Source: Hymenobacter metallicola
GTDB lineage: Bacteria > Bacteroidota > Bacteroidia > Cytophagales > Hymenobacteraceae
Direction: 5' to 3'
DNA: 64,000 nucleotides
NCBI RefSeq assembly: GCF_004745645.1
Contig: NZ_SRMB01000008.1
Location: forward strand, 1 to 64,000
The notes under the pieces were generated by a model. The model worked only from the letters and a program-made list of their open reading frames with translations, did not search any database and had not been told where the DNA came from. A program made the translations under genes and the position numbers. This document shows positions 12,077 to 62,936 of this stretch, piece after piece. The stretch's first letter is position 1, and each line of letters opens with the position of its first letter.

Positions 12077-12492
12077 TCTGTTTTGTGGGGGCGGTTATAC
12101 TGTGGGGCATCTACCACATAATCGACGAGGAGGCTATCGCCAACTCGCAGGGCCGGGTCTTGGGAATTGCCTTCAAACCACTTCCCCTGAAGCTGGAACC
12201 GATAGGAATAGGAGAACTGCCGCGAGACGGGGCTGTTGCCGGAGAAGTTTTTCTTATCAATTCCCACTGCTTTGATGGTGGCCGTTTTCCCGTCGAAAGC
12301 CTGGGTTATCTGGTGACCTTGCACACAGGTGCGAAGGACAGAGCCAAGCGTCAGCACGATAACGACCAAGCCAAACCAGCCCGAAAAGCCGATAGAGGTC
12401 TTGCGGGAATTCTTGTTGATTTTCGCCAAAGTCGTTTGATGTTGGGTTCGTTCAGCAAAACGGTCGTAGCTGTTGCAGAACTCGATGTGCAC
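12073..12492 (-). CDS. Small membrane protein resembling DUF3592
   Basis: An open frame of up to 139 codons. One strong membrane segment (GWFGLVVIVLTLGSVL) is followed by a soluble part with ATIKAVGIDKKNF, YSYRFQLQGKWFEGNS and VGDSLLVDYVVDAPQYNR, the pattern of DUF3592-like proteins. The only ATG (12492) would make the first 14 codons read through a copy of the dispersed repeat (12450-12483). A later start, perhaps TTG near 12430 giving AKINKNSRK, is more likely. It ends in ATGA overlapping the arsS remnant. Confidence 0.55.
   Translation of the reverse strand: MHIEFCNSYDRFAERTQHQTTLAKINKNSRKTSIGFSGWFGLVVIVLTLGSVLRTCVQGHQITQAFDGKTATIKAVGIDKKNFSGNSPVSRQFSYSYRFQLQGKWFEGNSQDPALRVGDSLLVDYVVDAPQYNRPHKTE
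12450..12483 (+). repeat. Dispersed cassette-type repeat, isolated left copy
   Basis: GTTCAGCAAAACGGTCG matches the core exactly. The right half AGCTGTTGCAGAAC is shared almost base for base with the copy at 42695 and differs from the usual TAGNRAAAGGAG. It is the only copy left of 37 kb and lies 19 bp before the stop of the next minus-strand frame, as in the main array. Confidence 0.8.
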
Positions 12493-38517: not shown

Positions 38518-38551
38518 GTTCAGCGAAAGGGTCAAAAAGGCAACTGAAGGT
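38518..38551 (+). repeat. Dispersed repeat copy
   Basis: GTTCAGCGAAAGGGTC then AAAAAGGCAACTGAAGG. One change in the core, right half divergent. About 120 bp before the stop of the minus-strand GNAT gene. Confidence 0.65.
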
Positions 38552-38671
38552 AGACGGGCAGACTAAGAGTTGCACTAGGTTAAACAGGGCATCTACAACC
38601 GATCCAAAACAGTCCCGGCACTGCATCATCCGGACCGTTCGGCTGCTCTCCTTTCAACCATGCCACCCTGG

Positions 38672-40074: not shown

Positions 40075-40108
40075 GTTCACGAAAACGGTCGATCTAGCGA
40101 AACGAGGG
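40075..40108 (+). repeat. Dispersed repeat copy, near-consensus
   Basis: GTTCACGAAAACGGTCG then ATCTAGCGAAACGAGGG: exact core and a good right half. It precedes the plus-strand TfoX-N gene by about 140 bp, with a promoter-like box between. Confidence 0.85.
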
Positions 40109-42694: not shown

Positions 42695-42728
42695 GTTGAC
42701 AAAAACGGTCATGGCTGTTGTAGAACCC
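42695..42728 (+). repeat. Dispersed repeat copy, variant right half
   Basis: GTTGACAAAAACGGTCATGGCTGTTGTAGAAC. The right half shares GCTGTTGnAGAAC with the isolated copy at 12450 and defines a second subtype. 19 bp after the monooxygenase stop. Confidence 0.75.
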
Positions 42729-42824
42729 TGCCCAGGGTCTGAACTGACTAGAAAGCGCGTGTTTTGAGGCACTTCTGCGCCGCAGCTGTGGCCAACGGAT
42801 GTTTTTATCTCTTAAATCGGCAAC

Positions 42825-44387: not shown

Positions 44388-44421
44388 GTTCAGTGAAACG
44401 GTCATTATGAATTAATACATA
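44388..44421 (+). repeat. Dispersed repeat copy
   Basis: GTTCAGTGAAACGGTC, exact core to this point; the right half (ATTATGAATTAATAC) is divergent. 16 bp before the stop of the next minus-strand gene. Confidence 0.8.
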
Positions 44422-44436
44422 CTGAAGTGCAGGTCG

Positions 44437-44706
44437 TTACTTCGGTGGAACGTATGCGTTTAGTGCGACAAGGAAGTCTTGCAGCGTCATCGTATACGGC
44501 TCCTGTTTTTCGTCATAGTATATGGCATCCCAGAGTTCGACTTGCCCCTCCTCAAAGCGGATAATCAACTGATACACGTTGTATTCAGTATCAAACAGGT
44601 GTTGTTTTTCTTCTTGGGCTACGGCAATCGCCCGAAGCACATGCTCTTTCATCCAGGCACTACTCACTTCTAGGTCACAGAAAGAGGGAAAAGAGGCGTA
44701 GATCAT
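44437..44706 (-). CDS. Unknown 89-residue acidic protein
   Basis: Soluble, acidic, alpha/beta-like: EEKQHLFDTEYNVYQLIIRF, ELWDAIYYDEKQEPYTMTLQ and FLVALNAY. The size and acidity resemble small immunity-type proteins but no family is recognised. Bounded tightly by repeat copies at 44388 and 44723, forming a 335-bp unit, the shortest here. Confidence 0.65.
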   Translation of the reverse strand: MIYASFPSFCDLEVSSAWMKEHVLRAIAVAQEEKQHLFDTEYNVYQLIIRFEEGQVELWDAIYYDEKQEPYTMTLQDFLVALNAYVPPK

Positions 44707-44722
44707 GGCTAAGGGAAATGCT

Positions 44723-44756
44723 GTTCACACAAACGGTCCGAATAGCGAAAGGCAGG
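44723..44756 (+). repeat. Dispersed repeat copy, near-consensus
   Basis: GTTCACACAAACGGTCC then GAATAGCGAAAGGCAGG. 16 bp upstream of the start of the minus-strand gene to its left. Confidence 0.85.
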
Positions 44757-44853
44757 ACAACCGAGTTCAGCAAGGGGATGCCCTAAGCAGTTGAGGCAAG
44801 TGATGGCCCACATGGTCCCCCAACACCTTATGGGAAGGTAGGTGTTTATACCT

Positions 44854-45378
44854 TCAGCCAGCAGGTGTCAGGCTGAACAGCGTGATGCTTTCGTCGACAG
44901 TGCGTTCTTTCTGAAAATGCAATTTCTCTAAAACGCTTGTAGAACGGTGGTTTTCGGAATGGGTATAGGCCTCTATTGCTTGGAGGCCGACCTGTTGAAA
45001 CCCAAAGTGGATCACAGTTGAAATCGCTTCGTGCATGAACCCTTTTCCCTGAAAGTCCGGGAGTAGCTCATACCCAATTTCTGCCTTCGAAGCGTCTTCC
45101 GACCAGTTATACAAGCAGACCGTTCCGATCACGTGGTCTGCCTCACGCAACGTAATGGCCCAATAAATGGACTCCTCGCGTTGAACGCTTTCGGTTATGG
45201 CGTGGATGAAGTTCCGGGCGTCATCAAGTGAGGTGCTGGGTCGCCTGTCCAGATACTGGTTCACGTGCTCGTTCGACCGCAGCGCCCATATTTCCTGGTC
45301 ATCGCTGCCTCTGAGCTGCCTCAAGGTCAGCCGTTGGGTTTGCAAAACCGGAAACGGTGTAAACTTTGTAGTTGTCAT
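44854..45378 (-). CDS. RimJ/RimL-type GNAT acetyltransferase
   Basis: About 174 residues: PVLQTQRLTLRQLRGSDDQE opening, then SIYWAITLREADHVIGTVCL, GYELLPDFQGKGFMHEAIST (acetyl-CoA loop Q-G-K-G) and IEAYTHSENHRSTSVLEKLH. This is the complete Acetyltransf_3 arrangement. Start at ATG 45378, preceded by an AGGAAG ribosome site; a longer frame exists but lacks similarity. Substrate unknown; relatives modify protein N-termini or small amines. Confidence 0.88.
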   Translation of the reverse strand: MTTTKFTPFPVLQTQRLTLRQLRGSDDQEIWALRSNEHVNQYLDRRPSTSLDDARNFIHAITESVQREESIYWAITLREADHVIGTVCLYNWSEDASKAEIGYELLPDFQGKGFMHEAISTVIHFGFQQVGLQAIEAYTHSENHRSTSVLEKLHFQKERTVDESITLFSLTPAG

Positions 45379-45555
45379 TTTTTCTTCCTGCGAATGTGTT
45401 GGGGAGGCCGCTTTGCTGACACCCCGCGCCCACGAACGTTCCCGCACCCAAAAGCAACTAGCAGGCGAGTGGTCGGATCAGTAGCATGAGGCGGGGCTTG
45501 TGAACGGAAGGTACACCCGTTAACGCGCAATGAGGCCACAGTGACAGGACTGGAA

Positions 45556-45589
45556 GTTCAGGAAAAGGGTCTGAATAGCGAAAGGAGGG
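45556..45589 (+). repeat. Dispersed repeat copy, near-consensus
   Basis: GTTCAGGAAAAGGGTCT then GAATAGCGAAAGGAGGG; the right half is nearly identical to the copy at 44723. 54 bp before the next plus-strand ATG. Confidence 0.85.
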
Positions 45590-45642
45590 ATAAATTAATA
45601 GTTGTTGCAACGTAAGTTTACTTGTTATCTCCCTCCCCTCTT

Positions 45643-46389
45643 ATGTCTAAGCTTGCCCCCGCCCCCCTTCACGTACTACAAAACGCGGTGGAGGACTTGT
45701 ATCGGGCGTTCGGTGGGTATCCGCTCTCCTCACTCGAGGGGTGCCCCTGCTGCGTGTCGGCGGCCGATAAGGGAAAGGTCACGCACCGCGCCCTGCGGGA
45801 GTTAACCGAGGACGACTTGGGCCGGTATGCGGGCAAGGCCATGACCACGTGGGGTACCGTCGAGGATTTCAAGCACTTTTTACCCCGGCTCTTTGAACTG
45901 ACGGCGGAGTTTCGGGCCCCGTACGACGAATACCTCATCTTCGGCAAGCTGGAGTACGGCCGCTGGCGCACGTGGCCGACGGCAGAAATCGAGGCCGTCG
46001 AGCGGTACTTCCTCGCGTTGTGGGATGTTGTATTGGTCAGCGAGAGCGAAGCGTGGCAGTTCCAGGACTACTTCGTGGCCCTGGCCGGCAGCTACCCGCA
46101 CTTTGACGAGTTGCTGCAGCGGTGGGAAGCCAGCACGGACCCCACGGCGTGGGTGCTGTTGGGCGATGAAGTCTGCGAACACCGTCACGCCATTTTTCAG
46201 AACAAGTACTTCAACGGCCCCTTCCTGGCATCTGTCCCGCTGAGTCAACGCTTTCGGGCGTGGGTAACGTCCCAAGCAGTCCGGGACAAACTACTTGCTG
46301 CCTTTAGCCAGTGCTCTGATGAAACCACCGCCGAGAAATTGGGCGTAGCCTATGACCTGATTGAGTACGAGCTTAAGTACCCTGGCTAA
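45643..46389 (+). CDS. Unknown 248-residue soluble protein
   Basis: Start at MSKLAPAPLH. Notable parts are a Cys pair in SSLEGCPCCVSAADKG, ELTEDDLGRYAGKAMTTWGT, FKHFLPRLFELTAEF and DALW-like LALWDVVLVSESEAWQFQ. Helical, without signal peptide or membrane segment. I do not recognise the family. The stop codon abuts the next repeat directly (46390). Confidence 0.75.
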   Translation: MSKLAPAPLHVLQNAVEDLYRAFGGYPLSSLEGCPCCVSAADKGKVTHRALRELTEDDLGRYAGKAMTTWGTVEDFKHFLPRLFELTAEFRAPYDEYLIFGKLEYGRWRTWPTAEIEAVERYFLALWDVVLVSESEAWQFQDYFVALAGSYPHFDELLQRWEASTDPTAWVLLGDEVCEHRHAIFQNKYFNGPFLASVPLSQRFRAWVTSQAVRDKLLAAFSQCSDETTAEKLGVAYDLIEYELKYPG

Positions 46390-46423
46390 CTTCAGTGAAA
46401 GGGTGATTCTAGCAAAAGCAGGG
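46390..46423 (+). repeat. Dispersed repeat copy
   Basis: CTTCAGTGAAAGGGTGATTCTAGCAAAAGCAGGG. It begins on the base after the TAA of the preceding gene, with no gap. Confidence 0.85.
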
Positions 46424-46479
46424 ATTGTTTTTTATAGACCTTTGCCGGCCTGCTCCGCTTCACTATAGTAGATCATCTT

Positions 46480-47163
46480 ATGCCTACTCGTTTCTGCTTA
46501 CGCATACTTCTGCACCTCATTCTGATTGTCATGTGCACGAATTGTGGTCCAACCAGCAGCGAAGAACAACGGCAAGCTGCTGAGCAGTTGCATGACGATA
46601 CCGTTGAAGTCACGTCATTTGACATCAAGTACGAAAATAGCCCAGCGTTGGCAAAATGGGAAGTATGGGAAGCTGGGCGGGAAATTATATGTACCCCACC
46701 TGGTTGGAAGTCTCACTTGGAAGATGATGGTGCAACGCTCGTCCTCCTTCTTGCTGATAACACTGATAGTCCGGAGCGGATCACTTTCACTCGCTTAGAG
46801 AAAGATACTTCCTCCTTGGATTACCCAGCCCTGGCTCAGCAACTGATTAATGCACCCTTTCCCGGCTTTCAACTGGCAGAAGGGGACACCGTCAAGAAGC
46901 TTATGTTTCAGCATGATTTCGCCGTTGAACGAGATGTAAACTTACGTGCGACGGGCAGGGCCTTTCACGCTTATGGCTTAGTGTATGTGAATGATCGTAA
47001 CCTGTACCACTTCCGCATCATCTTAGATAAGAGACGACTAAAAGCGTATCAAGGCGACCTCATCGACGACATTGTCGGAAATCTACAGATTGATAGAAAA
47101 TATCTGATGAGGAATGACAACCCCTTACAACAGGTCATCTATCTTACCGCTCACCTTAACTAA
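46480..47163 (+). CDS. Unknown exported protein, AT-richer
   Basis: 227 residues. The N-terminus has a hydrophobic signal (ILLHLILIVMCTNCGP) with Cys residues that could serve as a lipobox. The mature part has REIICTPPGWKSHLEDDGAT, ERITFTRLEKDTSSLDYPAL and YVNDRNLYHFRIILDKRRL, suggesting a beta-rich stress-type domain. Base composition is clearly lower in GC than the genes around it, which fits recent acquisition. No family recognised. Confidence 0.7.
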   Translation: MPTRFCLRILLHLILIVMCTNCGPTSSEEQRQAAEQLHDDTVEVTSFDIKYENSPALAKWEVWEAGREIICTPPGWKSHLEDDGATLVLLLADNTDSPERITFTRLEKDTSSLDYPALAQQLINAPFPGFQLAEGDTVKKLMFQHDFAVERDVNLRATGRAFHAYGLVYVNDRNLYHFRIILDKRRLKAYQGDLIDDIVGNLQIDRKYLMRNDNPLQQVIYLTAHLN

Positions 47164-47240
47164 GTCAAAAACACATTGATGGCGTATTGACTGCTTGGCC
47201 ATACGGCTCTTAGCGGCAATGCTTGTAGAGGATAAGACTT

Positions 47241-47274
47241 GTTCAGCCAAATGGTCGAATTAGTAGAAGGAGCC
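47241..47274 (+). repeat. Dispersed repeat copy, near-consensus
   Basis: GTTCAGCCAAATGGTCG then AATTAGTAGAAGGAGCC. 16 bp before the end of the broken minus-strand gene. Confidence 0.85.
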
Positions 47275-47290
47275 AGCTTTTGGCTAGAGA

Positions 47291-47728
47291 CTAGGGCGCT
47301 GTCAGTTCGTCTCCTTCACCTACGTCAATTTCCTCTACTTGCTGAAAGACCCCGTTGAACAAGGGTAGTCCCACGAGTTGGAGGATCTGCTGTCGAATGG
47401 TGGTTGGCATGATACCTTTCGGCTGTTTCATTTTTCGATATGGTCCCGCATGGGGCAGCCAATCGTAGACCTATAGCCCCTGTTTGGCAAAGTCCTTCCA
47501 CACGTCGGGTGACCCCAAATGGGGCAAAGCGATGCTGCGCGCGATATCATCATGGCGCTGAAAATGCCCCTGGGCATCAATGGGGACTGGCCCGAGGCCA
47601 CTGGTTGAAAACAGAGCGATGTTGCCTTCAGCATCCCGCGCAAACCAATCAGATTCGTCGCCGGGAAAACGTTCACTGAAAGTTTGAAGGGTAGCCGGCA
47701 AGGACACTACACATTGGTTTAGCCCCAA
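47291..47728 (-). pseudogene. Unknown small protein interrupted by an in-frame TAG
   Basis: Reading from ATG at 47728: FSERFPGDESDWFARDAEGN, then IALPHLGSPDVWKDFAKQGL, then TAG at 47473-47471. The same frame stays open past that stop as VYDWLPHAGPYRKMKQP, then PTTIRQQILQLVGLPLFNGV, to a natural TAG at 47293-47291. Composition and apparent continuity on both sides suggest one protein of about 145 residues with a nonsense mutation. Resembles the small immunity-type proteins common in bacteria; family not certain. It fills a repeat-bounded unit. Confidence 0.6.
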
Positions 47729-47759
47729 CGAATATACTACTGAGCAAACTCACTTGGCT

Positions 47760-47793
47760 GTTGGGCCAAACGGTGGTTCTGGTAAGAGGAGGG
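47760..47793 (+). repeat. Dispersed repeat copy
   Basis: GTTGGGCCAAACGGTGGTTCTGGTAAGAGGAGGG; TSG variant with a good right half. 31 bp upstream of the start of the broken gene to its left. Confidence 0.8.
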
Positions 47794-58990: not shown

Positions 58991-59024
58991 GTTCACTTGA
59001 ACGGTGGTTTAGGAAAAGGAGCCT
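58991..59024 (+). repeat. Dispersed repeat copy, near-consensus
   Basis: GTTCACTTGAACGGTGGTTTAGGAAAAGGAGCC; TGG variant. 29 bp after one stop and 27 bp before the next ATG. Confidence 0.85.
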
Positions 59025-59050
59025 ATTTTGTGGCCACTCACATCCCTTAC

Positions 59051-59638
59051 ATGAACGACCTGCGCCCTTTACTCTTACCGTTACCGCTACCACATCAAGC
59101 GGTATTTGCTGCGTTAATCTGCGTGCGCCTGCTTCCATCGGTGGAGCGCTTCGACCAGACCGAAACGAAACAAGGAGCGCTGCTCTTTCGCACGGCCATC
59201 GCCGCCCTCTGCGGGTTTGGGGCGCAGCAACCTGTCACTCCACACCAGTGGGGTGTCTTGCAGGAGAAGTTAGAACACTTCTGGCCAGATTTAGACGAAA
59301 GCGCCAACCCCTTTGCCTCTTATGCTTTTGACGCCTGTGTGGCCTTGAGTGAAGCCCTGGCGCTGGTGCAGGATGGGCAAGCAGAACATGCCCTGCAGTG
59401 TGCTATGGCGGCCCGGGACACGGTCGATATGTACGTGCAAGAGGTGACGGGTGTGGAACTGCCTCTGCAAGAAGTGGATGCCTTCGTTGCCGCCAGGCCA
59501 GAGATGCAACGCGAAGTCGCGTGGCAGCACGCCCTAGTCCAAGCGCTGGCCGCAGAACACCAGCTCACAGCCGCTGCGGTTGAGCAACTGCGTGACCACA
59601 GCGGAAATGAGCCGCTTGTAGACTTGACTGTACTATAG
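59051..59638 (+). CDS. DUF416 family protein
   Basis: About 195 residues: HQAVFAALICVRLLPSVERF and the following acidic helices, HQWGVLQEKLEHFWPDLDES, SYAFDACVALSEALALVQDG and DTVDMYVQEVTGVE. This matches the all-helical DUF416 (YjaG-like) layout. Function unknown in all members. Start at ATG 59051; an upstream Met would place the repeat inside the coding region. The stop lies 6 bp before the next repeat. Confidence 0.8.
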   Translation: MNDLRPLLLPLPLPHQAVFAALICVRLLPSVERFDQTETKQGALLFRTAIAALCGFGAQQPVTPHQWGVLQEKLEHFWPDLDESANPFASYAFDACVALSEALALVQDGQAEHALQCAMAARDTVDMYVQEVTGVELPLQEVDAFVAARPEMQREVAWQHALVQALAAEHQLTAAAVEQLRDHSGNEPLVDLTVL

Positions 59639-59644
59639 CCTAAT

Positions 59645-59678
59645 TGTTCAAATAATCAGTCTAATTCGCGAAAGGGGG
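59645..59678 (+). repeat. Dispersed repeat copy, diverged
   Basis: GTTCAAATAATCAGTCTAATTCGCGAAAGGGGGG. Several core changes, but both ends are kept. Confidence 0.65.
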
Positions 59679-59703
59679 GCTTCTTATACAAATGCGTAGC
59701 TGG

Positions 59704-60971: not shown

Positions 60972-61005
60972 GTTCAAAAAAACGGTCCGAACCCTTAATG
61001 TAGGG
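60972..61005 (+). repeat. Dispersed repeat copy
   Basis: GTTCAAAAAAACGGTCCGAACCCTTAATGTAGGG; exact core. The right half is replaced by a small dyad AACCCT-TAATGT-AGGGTT. Confidence 0.8.
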
Positions 61006-61045
61006 TTTAAGAGACGAAGCGTACCTTGCGTTCATTCGAAGAACG

Positions 61046-61489: not shown

Positions 61490-61523
61490 GTTCAGCGAAA
61501 CGGTGGTCTTAGTCGCCTCCAAC
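61490..61523 (+). repeat. Dispersed repeat copy
   Basis: GTTCAGCGAAACGGTGGTCTTAGTCGCCTCC; exact core, partial right half. 9 bp after the preceding stop. Confidence 0.85.
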
Positions 61524-61579
61524 CTCAACTTGTGGTACTTTTAAACGGTTTCTGACAGTTCCTGTTATATCATTTATAC

Positions 61580-62351: not shown

Positions 62352-62385
62352 GTTCAGCGGAACGGTGGTTCTAGCAAAAGGAGGA
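62352..62385 (+). repeat. Dispersed repeat copy, consensus-like
   Basis: GTTCAGCGGAACGGTGGTTCTAGCAAAAGGAGGAGG; full-length, the best model of the TGG subtype. 5 bp before the stop of the next minus-strand gene. Confidence 0.9.
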
Positions 62386-62390
62386 GGATA

Positions 62391-62936
62391 TCAAAGAGGT
62401 ACCATACCATTTCGGGGATACCCCTTCCTGTCATACCGTTTTTGCCCCCAGGAGCGTGGCTTGCCTTGTGTGTAGTGGACTCGCGCACGGGGCAACCCAT
62501 TCGCCCAAAAACGCAGCACACTTTGCAGCTCTCCTGCCTGGTATTCCTCGACTTTGGTGATGGTGCCGAAAACGTTCTGATGAAACCAGAGGCCTTCTCG
62601 TACCCCGTTGCGGTAGCCATTGAACAAGCCGTCTGGCAAGAGGGTGGCGCACTGCACAGTGAAGGCCTCCCCGTTGGAATGCTCGTTACCAAACCCAATG
62701 AAGACCACGTCGTTTCCAAGTGAGCACACCCGGCTGATAATCACCCGCCCTCGATACAGCACCGCATCTGGGCCGAGTGTCCGCCCGCCCTTTCCCCAAA
62801 ACTGATTCAGCGTCAGCTGCCGGCATCCTAGTGAGTCGGCAACGCCACTGCTGCAGTGCGCCAACCGTTGCCCGGAGCAGTGGCCCGTAATTAACGTGAG
62901 TGCGAGAAAAGTTACCCCAAGTGCTGCTCTAATCAT
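62391..62936 (-). CDS. Secreted MORN-repeat protein (YwqK-like)
   Basis: 181 residues: signal peptide (FLALTLITGHCSG), then a C-terminal half of MORN-type repeats: LLPDGLFNGYRNGVREGLWF, VEEYQAGELQSVLRFWANGL and PRARVHYTQGKPRSWGQKRY. Often annotated as YwqK-family antitoxin, though exported members are not proven antitoxins. Unit bounded by repeats at 62352 and 62959; next to a second MORN gene. Confidence 0.75.
   Translation of the reverse strand: MIRAALGVTFLALTLITGHCSGQRLAHCSSGVADSLGCRQLTLNQFWGKGGRTLGPDAVLYRGRVIISRVCSLGNDVVFIGFGNEHSNGEAFTVQCATLLPDGLFNGYRNGVREGLWFHQNVFGTITKVEEYQAGELQSVLRFWANGLPRARVHYTQGKPRSWGQKRYDRKGYPRNGMVPL

Follow-up and report, generated by a model that had tools for sequence, protein, structure and literature searches.

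What do copies of a short repeat mark when they abut gene ends irrespective of the direction of the genes? This question is raised by a stretch of 64,000 nucleotides (nt) from Hymenobacter metallicola (positions 1 to 64,000 of contig NZ_SRMB01000008.1, assembly GCF_004745645.1), which was analysed as a whole and is called the window here. We consider it very probable that the repeats are the junctions of an integron-like array of gene cassettes, which would be operated by a small serine recombinase from the resolvase/invertase family and not by an integron integrase. The chain of cassettes looks like an independently evolved bacterial way of collecting genes. The window belongs to contig C13 of a 5.94-Mb genome, and the whole array occupies the contig positions from 38518 to 71359; the span pointed out in the first-pass annotation covers a part of this array, which extends past the window.

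Homology switches at the repeat

The core of the repeat is GTTCAnnnAAACGGT; no conservation is seen to the left of the core, and about 22 nt to the right are variable. The array copies are composed of GTTCAnnnAAACG (called C1), GT, and a variable right part, and they lie between genes on a single strand, whatever the direction of those genes. The right part begins with a middle segment (M) of about 15 nt, for example CCGAATAGCRAAACG or SGTTCTAGCGAAAGG, and in many junctions M is continued by AG and a further segment (C2), which is often CGTTT. A description of the right part as a single conserved arm was rejected, as it splits into several register classes. When 1.58 Mb of Hymenobacter loci, which had been picked for the presence of sites or recombinases, were searched with the pattern GTTCANNNAAACGGT (at most one mismatch), 354 copies were found versus 5 for the reversed pattern. 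GT occupies site positions 14-15 in 344 of 350 sites, GT itself being a part of the search core.

Flanks of 250 nt were then compared pairwise among the sites: 36 pairs shared the left flank, 51 pairs shared the right flank, and none shared both. Leaving out the 16 of the 354 sites that belong to an insertion sequence (IS)-type class with CGTGGCTGTTGCAGAAC, the corresponding numbers were 32, 39, and 0. The left-shared alignments that terminate within the site number 29, of which 19 stop at positions 15-17, five at 19-22, and five at 28-36, and 48 of the 51 right-shared alignments start at or before position 10. In 12 left-shared pairs that are at least 90% alike, furthermore, the identity was 0.95 at positions 9-13, 1.00 at GT (positions 14-15), and 0.38 at positions 17-24; in 10 right-shared pairs, it was 0.20 at positions 6-8 and 0.80 at positions 17-24. 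These identity profiles place the usual switch of homology at or next to GT. In the loci aligned here, related cassettes are thus found beside differing neighbours, with homology that breaks off next to GT within the arrays.

An attachment site with the layout of res

In relatives of the recombinase outside the clade associated with the arrays (hereafter, the array clade), a palindromic res site I, GTTCAnnnAAACG-NN-CGTTTnnnTGAAC, was recognised by eye just upstream of the gene, and its central dinucleotide, also judged by eye, varies (e.g., AC, TT, AA, and AG). The array junction corresponds to the left half of this site I with the centre GT; namely, C1 supplies one half of the family's res site I, and GT stands as its central dinucleotide. 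In the array clade, a site I with the centre AG (read toward the cassette) is located upstream of the gene as part of a full res-like site that we named attI; M of the array junctions frequently resembles its left half. An attachment site is present beside the recombinase at the array head in this clade. The spacer in attI is 62-63 or 51-53 nt long (79 nt in one of 33), the two classes being approximately one helical turn apart, and the dyads GAGTTTAAGAAACTC / AAAGTTTACGAAAC / GAGTTTCGTAAACTC, which correspond to sites II and III, precede the start codon of the recombinase. The arrangement of res with subsites I, II, and III upstream of a resolvase gene was found in 25 aligned attIs with the dyads assigned by eye; these attIs were selected by a pattern requiring C and then T or A, and the invariant CT among them is hence partly built in.

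The first cassette joins attI after AG, unlike the exchange at GT within arrays. In the source genome, the first cassettes at the attI of C13 and at that of contig C7 are 99% identical, and their alignment extends 18 nt to the left of the AG join, where most of the mismatches are found. First cassettes were also compared with array-internal ones: the queries were extended upstream by as much as 150 nt, no filter was set on the start of homology, and an alignment was kept if it included 80 nt or more of the cassette. An earlier comparison, for which a usable query was available from 70 of 88 attIs, had excluded the rows with homology starting after nt 12. As a result, 18 pairs were obtained from 15 attIs (one attI, in L280, supplies four of them), none of which shares more than 18 nt to the left of the AG join. 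Homology starts at -8 to -3 in 11 pairs, which is approximately the AAAnG-AG consensus itself, at -18 to -14 in three pairs, and inside the cassette in the other four (11, 13, 34, and 63 nt in). This count left out attI-attI rows, rows in which one and the same DNA was present in two loci, those of the IS in L170, and also eight rows starting 36-253 nt inside the cassette without a recognisable junction. The array copies of these cassettes carry a sequence of the C1-GT-M-AG type in front. One such cassette lies in the window at 40107 and resembles the first cassette at the attI of L292 (88% over 293 nt, with homology from 11 nt inside). Taken together with the array breakpoints, the limits in the 18 pairs suggest that capture joins after AG and that exchange in arrays occurs mostly after GT.

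Two further features of these sites were noticed. A dif-like sequence, TATAACnnnnnTTATGTTAA (at most three mismatches), occurs beyond site III in 14 of 87 attIs and in 0 of 87 shuffled ones; it lies 67-122 nt past site III, within 67-86 nt of its end in 13 of the 14 (e.g., L282:9336-9814, L280:3572, L260:7886, and L284:9189). attI may thus ride on Xer-dependent modules. Also, an IS-like end (CGTGGCTGTTGCAGAAC) directly follows the crossover dinucleotide at the 16 sites mentioned above and at one attI, as if the IS targeted the recombination site (L170:9850, L151:2907, L154:8722, and perhaps position 12450 of the window).

A serine recombinase at the centre of outward arrays

Six serine recombinases with PF00239 are encoded in the source genome, and a member of the array clade is located at C13:93904-94521, on the contig of the window but 30 kb past the window's end. 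As far as its sequence tells, the protein is a small serine recombinase (resolvase/invertase) with the Resolvase domain (PF00239, 2.3e-43), the Ser/Arg residues, and a C-terminal helix-turn-helix (HTH), the match to HTH_7 being below the cut-off (19.7 vs 23.8 bits). R7, S9, Q13, R43, D65, R66, and R69, which we take to be catalytic residues, are kept in 17 of 17 full-length rows. This open reading frame (ORF) is flanked by a minus-strand site 533 bp to the left and by a plus-strand site 641 bp to the right. For 18 clade members, as much as 20 kb of surrounding sequence was examined: at the 17 loci other than C13, 111 of 114 sites follow an outward rule with minus-strand sites on the left and plus-strand sites on the right, and two of these loci, both truncated by contig ends, carry no site. 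At C13, the eight sites within 12 kb obey the same rule (6/6 and 2/2). The other 26 recombinases examined have 13 sites in total around them, four of which are in a locus shared with a clade member. In the tree, indeed, 15 rows of the 18-row clade (support 96/91) are labelled with an array compared with one row of the 16-row sister clade.

The best solved relative of the recombinase is the DNA-invertase 4m6f (1.3e-44), which is presumably Gin of phage Mu, and the outward sites flanking the recombinase on both sides would permit inversion. An enzyme of the shufflon or Mpi type that flips segments and thereby switches expression (phase variation) could be considered from these features, but we regard it as quite improbable. 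Within each array, the sites are arranged as direct repeats, by which excision or insertion is favoured, and the units are unrelated genes (189 clusters in 219 proteins). The NCBIfam model of Mpi gave only 64.6 bits against its cut-off of 272, and membership in Mpi-type invertases was hence rejected. Inversion of the recombinase unit may nonetheless occur as a side reaction.

The architecture with tandem cassettes of one to two genes, one-way sites, a head at attI, and headless arrays is that of an integron, in which the repeats would be attC sites moved as folded single strands by an IntI tyrosine recombinase. Weak matches to TIGR02249, the model of the integron integrase, were indeed obtained in all 120 Hymenobacter genomes, with two separate matches of about 97 bits apiece in some frames. 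No genome of the 120, however, exceeded the cut-off of 265 bits; the best single match was 98.3 bits, and that in the source genome was 78.7 bits. When 10 of the 11 PF00589 proteins in the source genome were scored with TIGR02249 (the one left out is a piece of 95 amino acids), all were below the cut-off with the best score of 140 bits for a XerD protein. No attC-like fold was found in 12 sites (44 nt each, bottom strand; z from -1.93 to 0.95). The consensus of attC is GTTRRRY with the break at G/TT, and the breakpoints here are at GT and AG instead. With the integrase cut-off not reached and no attC-like fold in those 12 sites, an attC integron was rejected, and we consider a true integron very improbable.

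It might also be supposed that real cassettes are moved by XerCD, an unlinked tyrosine recombinase, or RecA acting on the repeats, and that the serine recombinase is simply a plasmid resolvase encoded in the vicinity. The dif-like sequence near 14 of the 87 attIs (none of the shuffled ones), the 11 PF00589 matches in the source genome, and the location of arrays on plasmids in the complete genomes examined would fit such a mover, plasmids often having resolvases. We nevertheless think of it as unlikely: the array sites have the half-site of the res site I of this very recombinase family, the arrays go with one recombinase clade and are almost missing from the loci of the sister clade, and the breakpoints concentrate at GT and AG. 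Identity of 15 nt, furthermore, is short for RecA. A further candidate mover that we considered is the tyrosine recombinase encoded at C11:173584, with a small array 13 kb away; this protein scores as XerC/D-like.

The array of the window

A hidden Markov model (HMM) trained on the 13 copies listed in the first-pass annotation was applied to the window and gave 16 matches at E<0.01, namely the 13 training copies and three extra ones, all on the plus strand. The copies, which we interpret as cassette junctions, and the two cassette genes described below are as follows:

38518..38554, plus strand: first clear array site; left half GTTCAGCGAAAGG, GT, and right part; 15.8 bits
39332..39368, plus strand: weak junction; one core mismatch; 9.6 bits
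40075..40111, plus strand: junction; the cassette from 40107 corresponds to the first cassette at a recombinase-less attI (L292) in another species
42695..42731, plus strand: weak junction; site search
44388..44424, plus strand: junction; 13-copy HMM
44723..44759, plus strand: junction; right part CCGAATAGCGAAAGG; 13-copy HMM
44854..45447, minus strand: cassette gene for a GNAT acetyltransferase (Pfam PF13302, 1.2e-30)
45556..45592, plus strand: junction; 13-copy HMM
45622..46389, plus strand: cassette gene with no Pfam match; its stop adjoins the next junction
46390..46426, plus strand: junction; 23.4 bits
47241..47277, plus strand: junction; 23.6 bits
47760..47796, plus strand: junction; 17.1 bits
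54359..54395, plus strand: junction; 21.7 bits
58513..58549, plus strand: weak junction; site search
58991..59027, plus strand: junction; middle part GGTTTAGGAAAAGGAG like the attI left half; 8.4 bits to the attI model
59646..59682, plus strand: degenerate junction; 18.2 bits (13-copy HMM) and 7.7 bits (second search)
60972..61008, plus strand: junction; 13-copy HMM
61490..61526, plus strand: junction; 13-copy HMM
62352..62388, plus strand: junction; 25.1 bits
62959..62995, plus strand: junction; 27.1 bits
63959..63995, plus strand: junction; site search; the array continues beyond the window to contig position 71359
12450..12486, plus strand: isolated copy at a distance from the array; what follows GT is, by eye, like the IS-type class

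Adjacent copies in the window are mostly 300-1300 bp apart with the largest gaps of 6.6 kb. The distances to gene ends given in the first-pass annotation were accurate to 1-2 bases. The copy at 46390 begins on the base following the stop of the ORF at 45622-46389, and that at 59646 (previously placed at 59645) is 7 bases from the stop of the ORF at 58997-59638. Past the ends of the copies at 62352, 62959, and 54359, the stop of a minus-strand ORF (at 62391, 62998, and 54390, respectively) follows after about 2-6 bases, a distance that varies with the placement of the degenerate right end. Those at 61490, 60972, and 58991 come 9, 21, and 29 bases after the preceding stop, the copies at 44723 and 47760 are 16 and 31 bases from minus-strand starts, and the copy at 44388, counted as 37 nt, ends 12 bases ahead of a stop. 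The exception is the copy at 47241, which was also described as close to a gene end but has no ORF of at least 60 amino acids within 31 bp.

This placement holds beyond the window. Called ORFs with a minimum length of 80 amino acids cover 69 of the 318 array sites tested across the fetched loci, compared with 82% of points placed at random in these arrays. At 297 sites with genes on both sides, the preceding gene runs along the direction of the site in 140 cases and opposite to it in 157, and the following gene in 129 and 168 cases, respectively. A role as an operator or promoter is therefore unsupported by the direction of the neighbouring genes and was rejected, as the first-pass annotation had argued. 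Its proposal of a unit boundary is borne out by the flanks that switch at the repeat regardless of gene direction; what it did not contain was the identity of the units as mobile gene cassettes, the crossover point next to GT, the likely enzyme (a serine recombinase), and the attI-like entry sites. The copies are certainly short, intergenic, and numerous, as would be expected of a dispersed intergenic repeat (a repetitive extragenic palindrome or a miniature inverted-repeat transposable element), a terminator, or a promoter element. Such an element is, however, barely conceivable given the single orientation in each array, the homology switch with no pair sharing both flanks, the existence of attI as an entry site, the lack of a directional link to genes, and no strong hairpin in the 12 sites folded. 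Also, no Rfam model of a known RNA element matched at the gathering cut-off.

The array of the window is probably a headless stretch of cassettes on a plasmid. Beyond the window, C13 has ORFs between two arrays (71.4-82.7 kb) that resemble, by eye, ParA and a conjugation coupling protein and suggest that C13 is a plasmid.

Distribution in Hymenobacter and attIs without a recognised recombinase

Exact copies of GTTCANNNAAACGGTC are present in 73 of 120 Hymenobacter genomes, frequently just one or two and at most 60 per genome. In 84 genomes of sister genera, 9 copies were found in 8 genomes versus 29 copies of the reversed control. In Hymenobacter canadensis, arrays are carried by a complete plasmid (NZ_CP114768.1), and lone copies were found on chromosome-size contigs of the genus.

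A sequence model of attI matched in 97 of the 120 genomes, with at least 24 matches in one of them. Among 88 distinct full attIs in the fetched loci, 66 are orphans in the sense that no adjacent recombinase start was recognised, a definition based on the start ATGAARATHGGC, which a recombinase with a different start would escape. These attIs head further arrays and single cassettes. For 22 attIs in 20 loci, the nearest site on the cassette side points outward in 16 cases and inward in none, with no site within 4 kb in the other six, and seven of the 22 have a site on the opposite side; the 20 loci were picked from the listing of attIs, and a nearby site was already known at the time of picking for at least G012:C1.

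attI-like res sites without a recombinase are, in addition, scattered genus-wide (e.g., G033, G009, and G071). In L282 (9336/9814) and L283 (7564/8034), moreover, attIs are paired back to back about 200 bp apart, with their cassette sides outward and no recombinase between them; such a pair is possibly a two-way platform.

Cassette content

The median length of 254 units is 745 bp, and their ORFs run along the site direction in 139 cases and opposite to it in 177. The 219 cassette proteins examined fall into the 189 clusters noted above, 163 of which are singletons. Content was scanned for 145 of 187 cluster representatives: 67 Pfam families were found among the scanned proteins, those listed including GNAT, Fic, barstar, and hydrolases, and 13 PADLOC models were matched, with SoFic and PDC-S04 in two members each. 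Some cassettes thus match candidate defence proteins (SoFic, PDC-S04, and weakly the models of LmuA and ZorB), in addition to a barstar-like protein.

Proposed mechanism

Judging from the breakpoints and the symmetry of the sites, the serine recombinase would cut with a 2-nt stagger. Exchange of GT with GT between junctions would produce excised circles and reshuffled arrays, and exchange of AG with AG would capture a circle at attI, leaving the composite junction C1-GT-M-AG-C2. Orphan attIs would be served in trans. The conserved junctions, the breakpoints at GT and AG, the outward arrays, the association with one clade, and the res-like attI, all of which are seen in the aligned sequences, point to recombination and to this recombinase as its agent. 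In terms of origin, we lean toward a scenario in which a plasmid-type resolvase gave rise independently to integron-like capture: res would have become attI and half of site I the cassette tag, with capture at AG and shuffling at GT being incompatible with each other, and a single enzyme would act in trans on many orphan attIs, both plasmid-borne and chromosomal, throughout the genus.

Several points weigh against the proposal of a cassette array run by the serine recombinase. The enzyme is assigned from its position, its clade, and the likeness of the sites, and recombination, circles, and binding of the recombinase are predicted events; also, array sites were already known beside several of the clade loci when these loci were chosen. 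Clear AA[ACG][CG]GAG follows GT in just 106 of 350 junctions (3 in the control window), and three of the 51 right-shared alignments start as late as positions 34-36. In left-shared pairs at least 90% alike, the share of differing cells is 31% at positions 6-8 of C1 and 7% in the flanks, an excess that is unexplained by a single crossover at GT. By eye, M travels with C2 in most right-shared pairs, so that capture by AG at attI is insufficient for most array differences and exchange at GT must be added. No attI was found at the left end of the window array, where the best match to the attI model is 8.4 bits, and the 27 plus-strand sites of this array break the outward rule for the recombinase of C13. 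The spread of orphan attIs is likewise not accounted for.

Comparison with known systems

In a search of the open-access literature, we found no description of a cassette array with a serine recombinase. Among the known systems, Gin/Hin/Mpi DNA invertases share the protein family with the Hymenobacter recombinase (the match to 4m6f); the latter misses the Mpi cut-off, however, and acts, as we propose, on direct-repeat arrays of unrelated genes and not on one inverted pair. pdif modules are small modules between short recombination sites that are found on plasmids and moved by XerCD. The Hymenobacter cassettes are likewise small, bounded by short recombination sites, and on plasmids, and a dif-like sequence is near some attIs, as described above; the array sites nonetheless have no dif-like XerC/XerD arms as judged by eye, without a model being applied.

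A likeness is also found in the resolvase (TnpR) of Tn3-family transposons. attI has the same layout of site I, spacer, and sites II/III beside the recombinase gene as in a paper on this family, where exchange of neighbouring genes at the dinucleotide of res site I is also proposed (PMC7157771). Unlike the Tn3 family, Hymenobacter has serial arrays of junctions resembling site I and uses two dinucleotides; no role in cointegrates is known in Hymenobacter, transposases near the 18 clade loci not having been searched for. A route from a plasmid resolution system to a gene-collecting platform would be shown, if the scenario above is true.

In its working, the Hymenobacter system resembles integrons, including clusters of attC sites lacking an integron-integrase (CALINs): a recombinase platform with an upstream attachment site, capture at the head, headless arrays, and a tandem array of small, diverse, and apparently mobile cassettes are all recognised. 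In integrons, an IntI tyrosine recombinase acts on attC sites folded as single strands (PMC8618304 and PMC9668308). The recombinase in Hymenobacter is, by contrast, a serine one, and no attC-like fold was found in the 12 sites; capture breaks at AG and array exchange at GT, the arrays lie on both sides of the platform with genes in both directions, and many attIs are orphans. Since neither IntI above its cut-off in the 120 genomes nor an attC-like fold in the 12 sites was found, the system is integron-like in its working but not a member of integrons, and tools seeking IntI and attC are not expected to detect its arrays. If our interpretation is true, a widespread environmental genus would prove to hold a large stock of cassette genes, most of them nameless, and a cassette tool with two non-crossing dinucleotides would be available. 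According to the same papers, capture of gene cassettes has been tied to a single enzyme family, the IntI tyrosine recombinases (PMC8618304 and PMC9668308), and a counterpart with a serine recombinase would hence represent a separate origin of the cassette-capture strategy.

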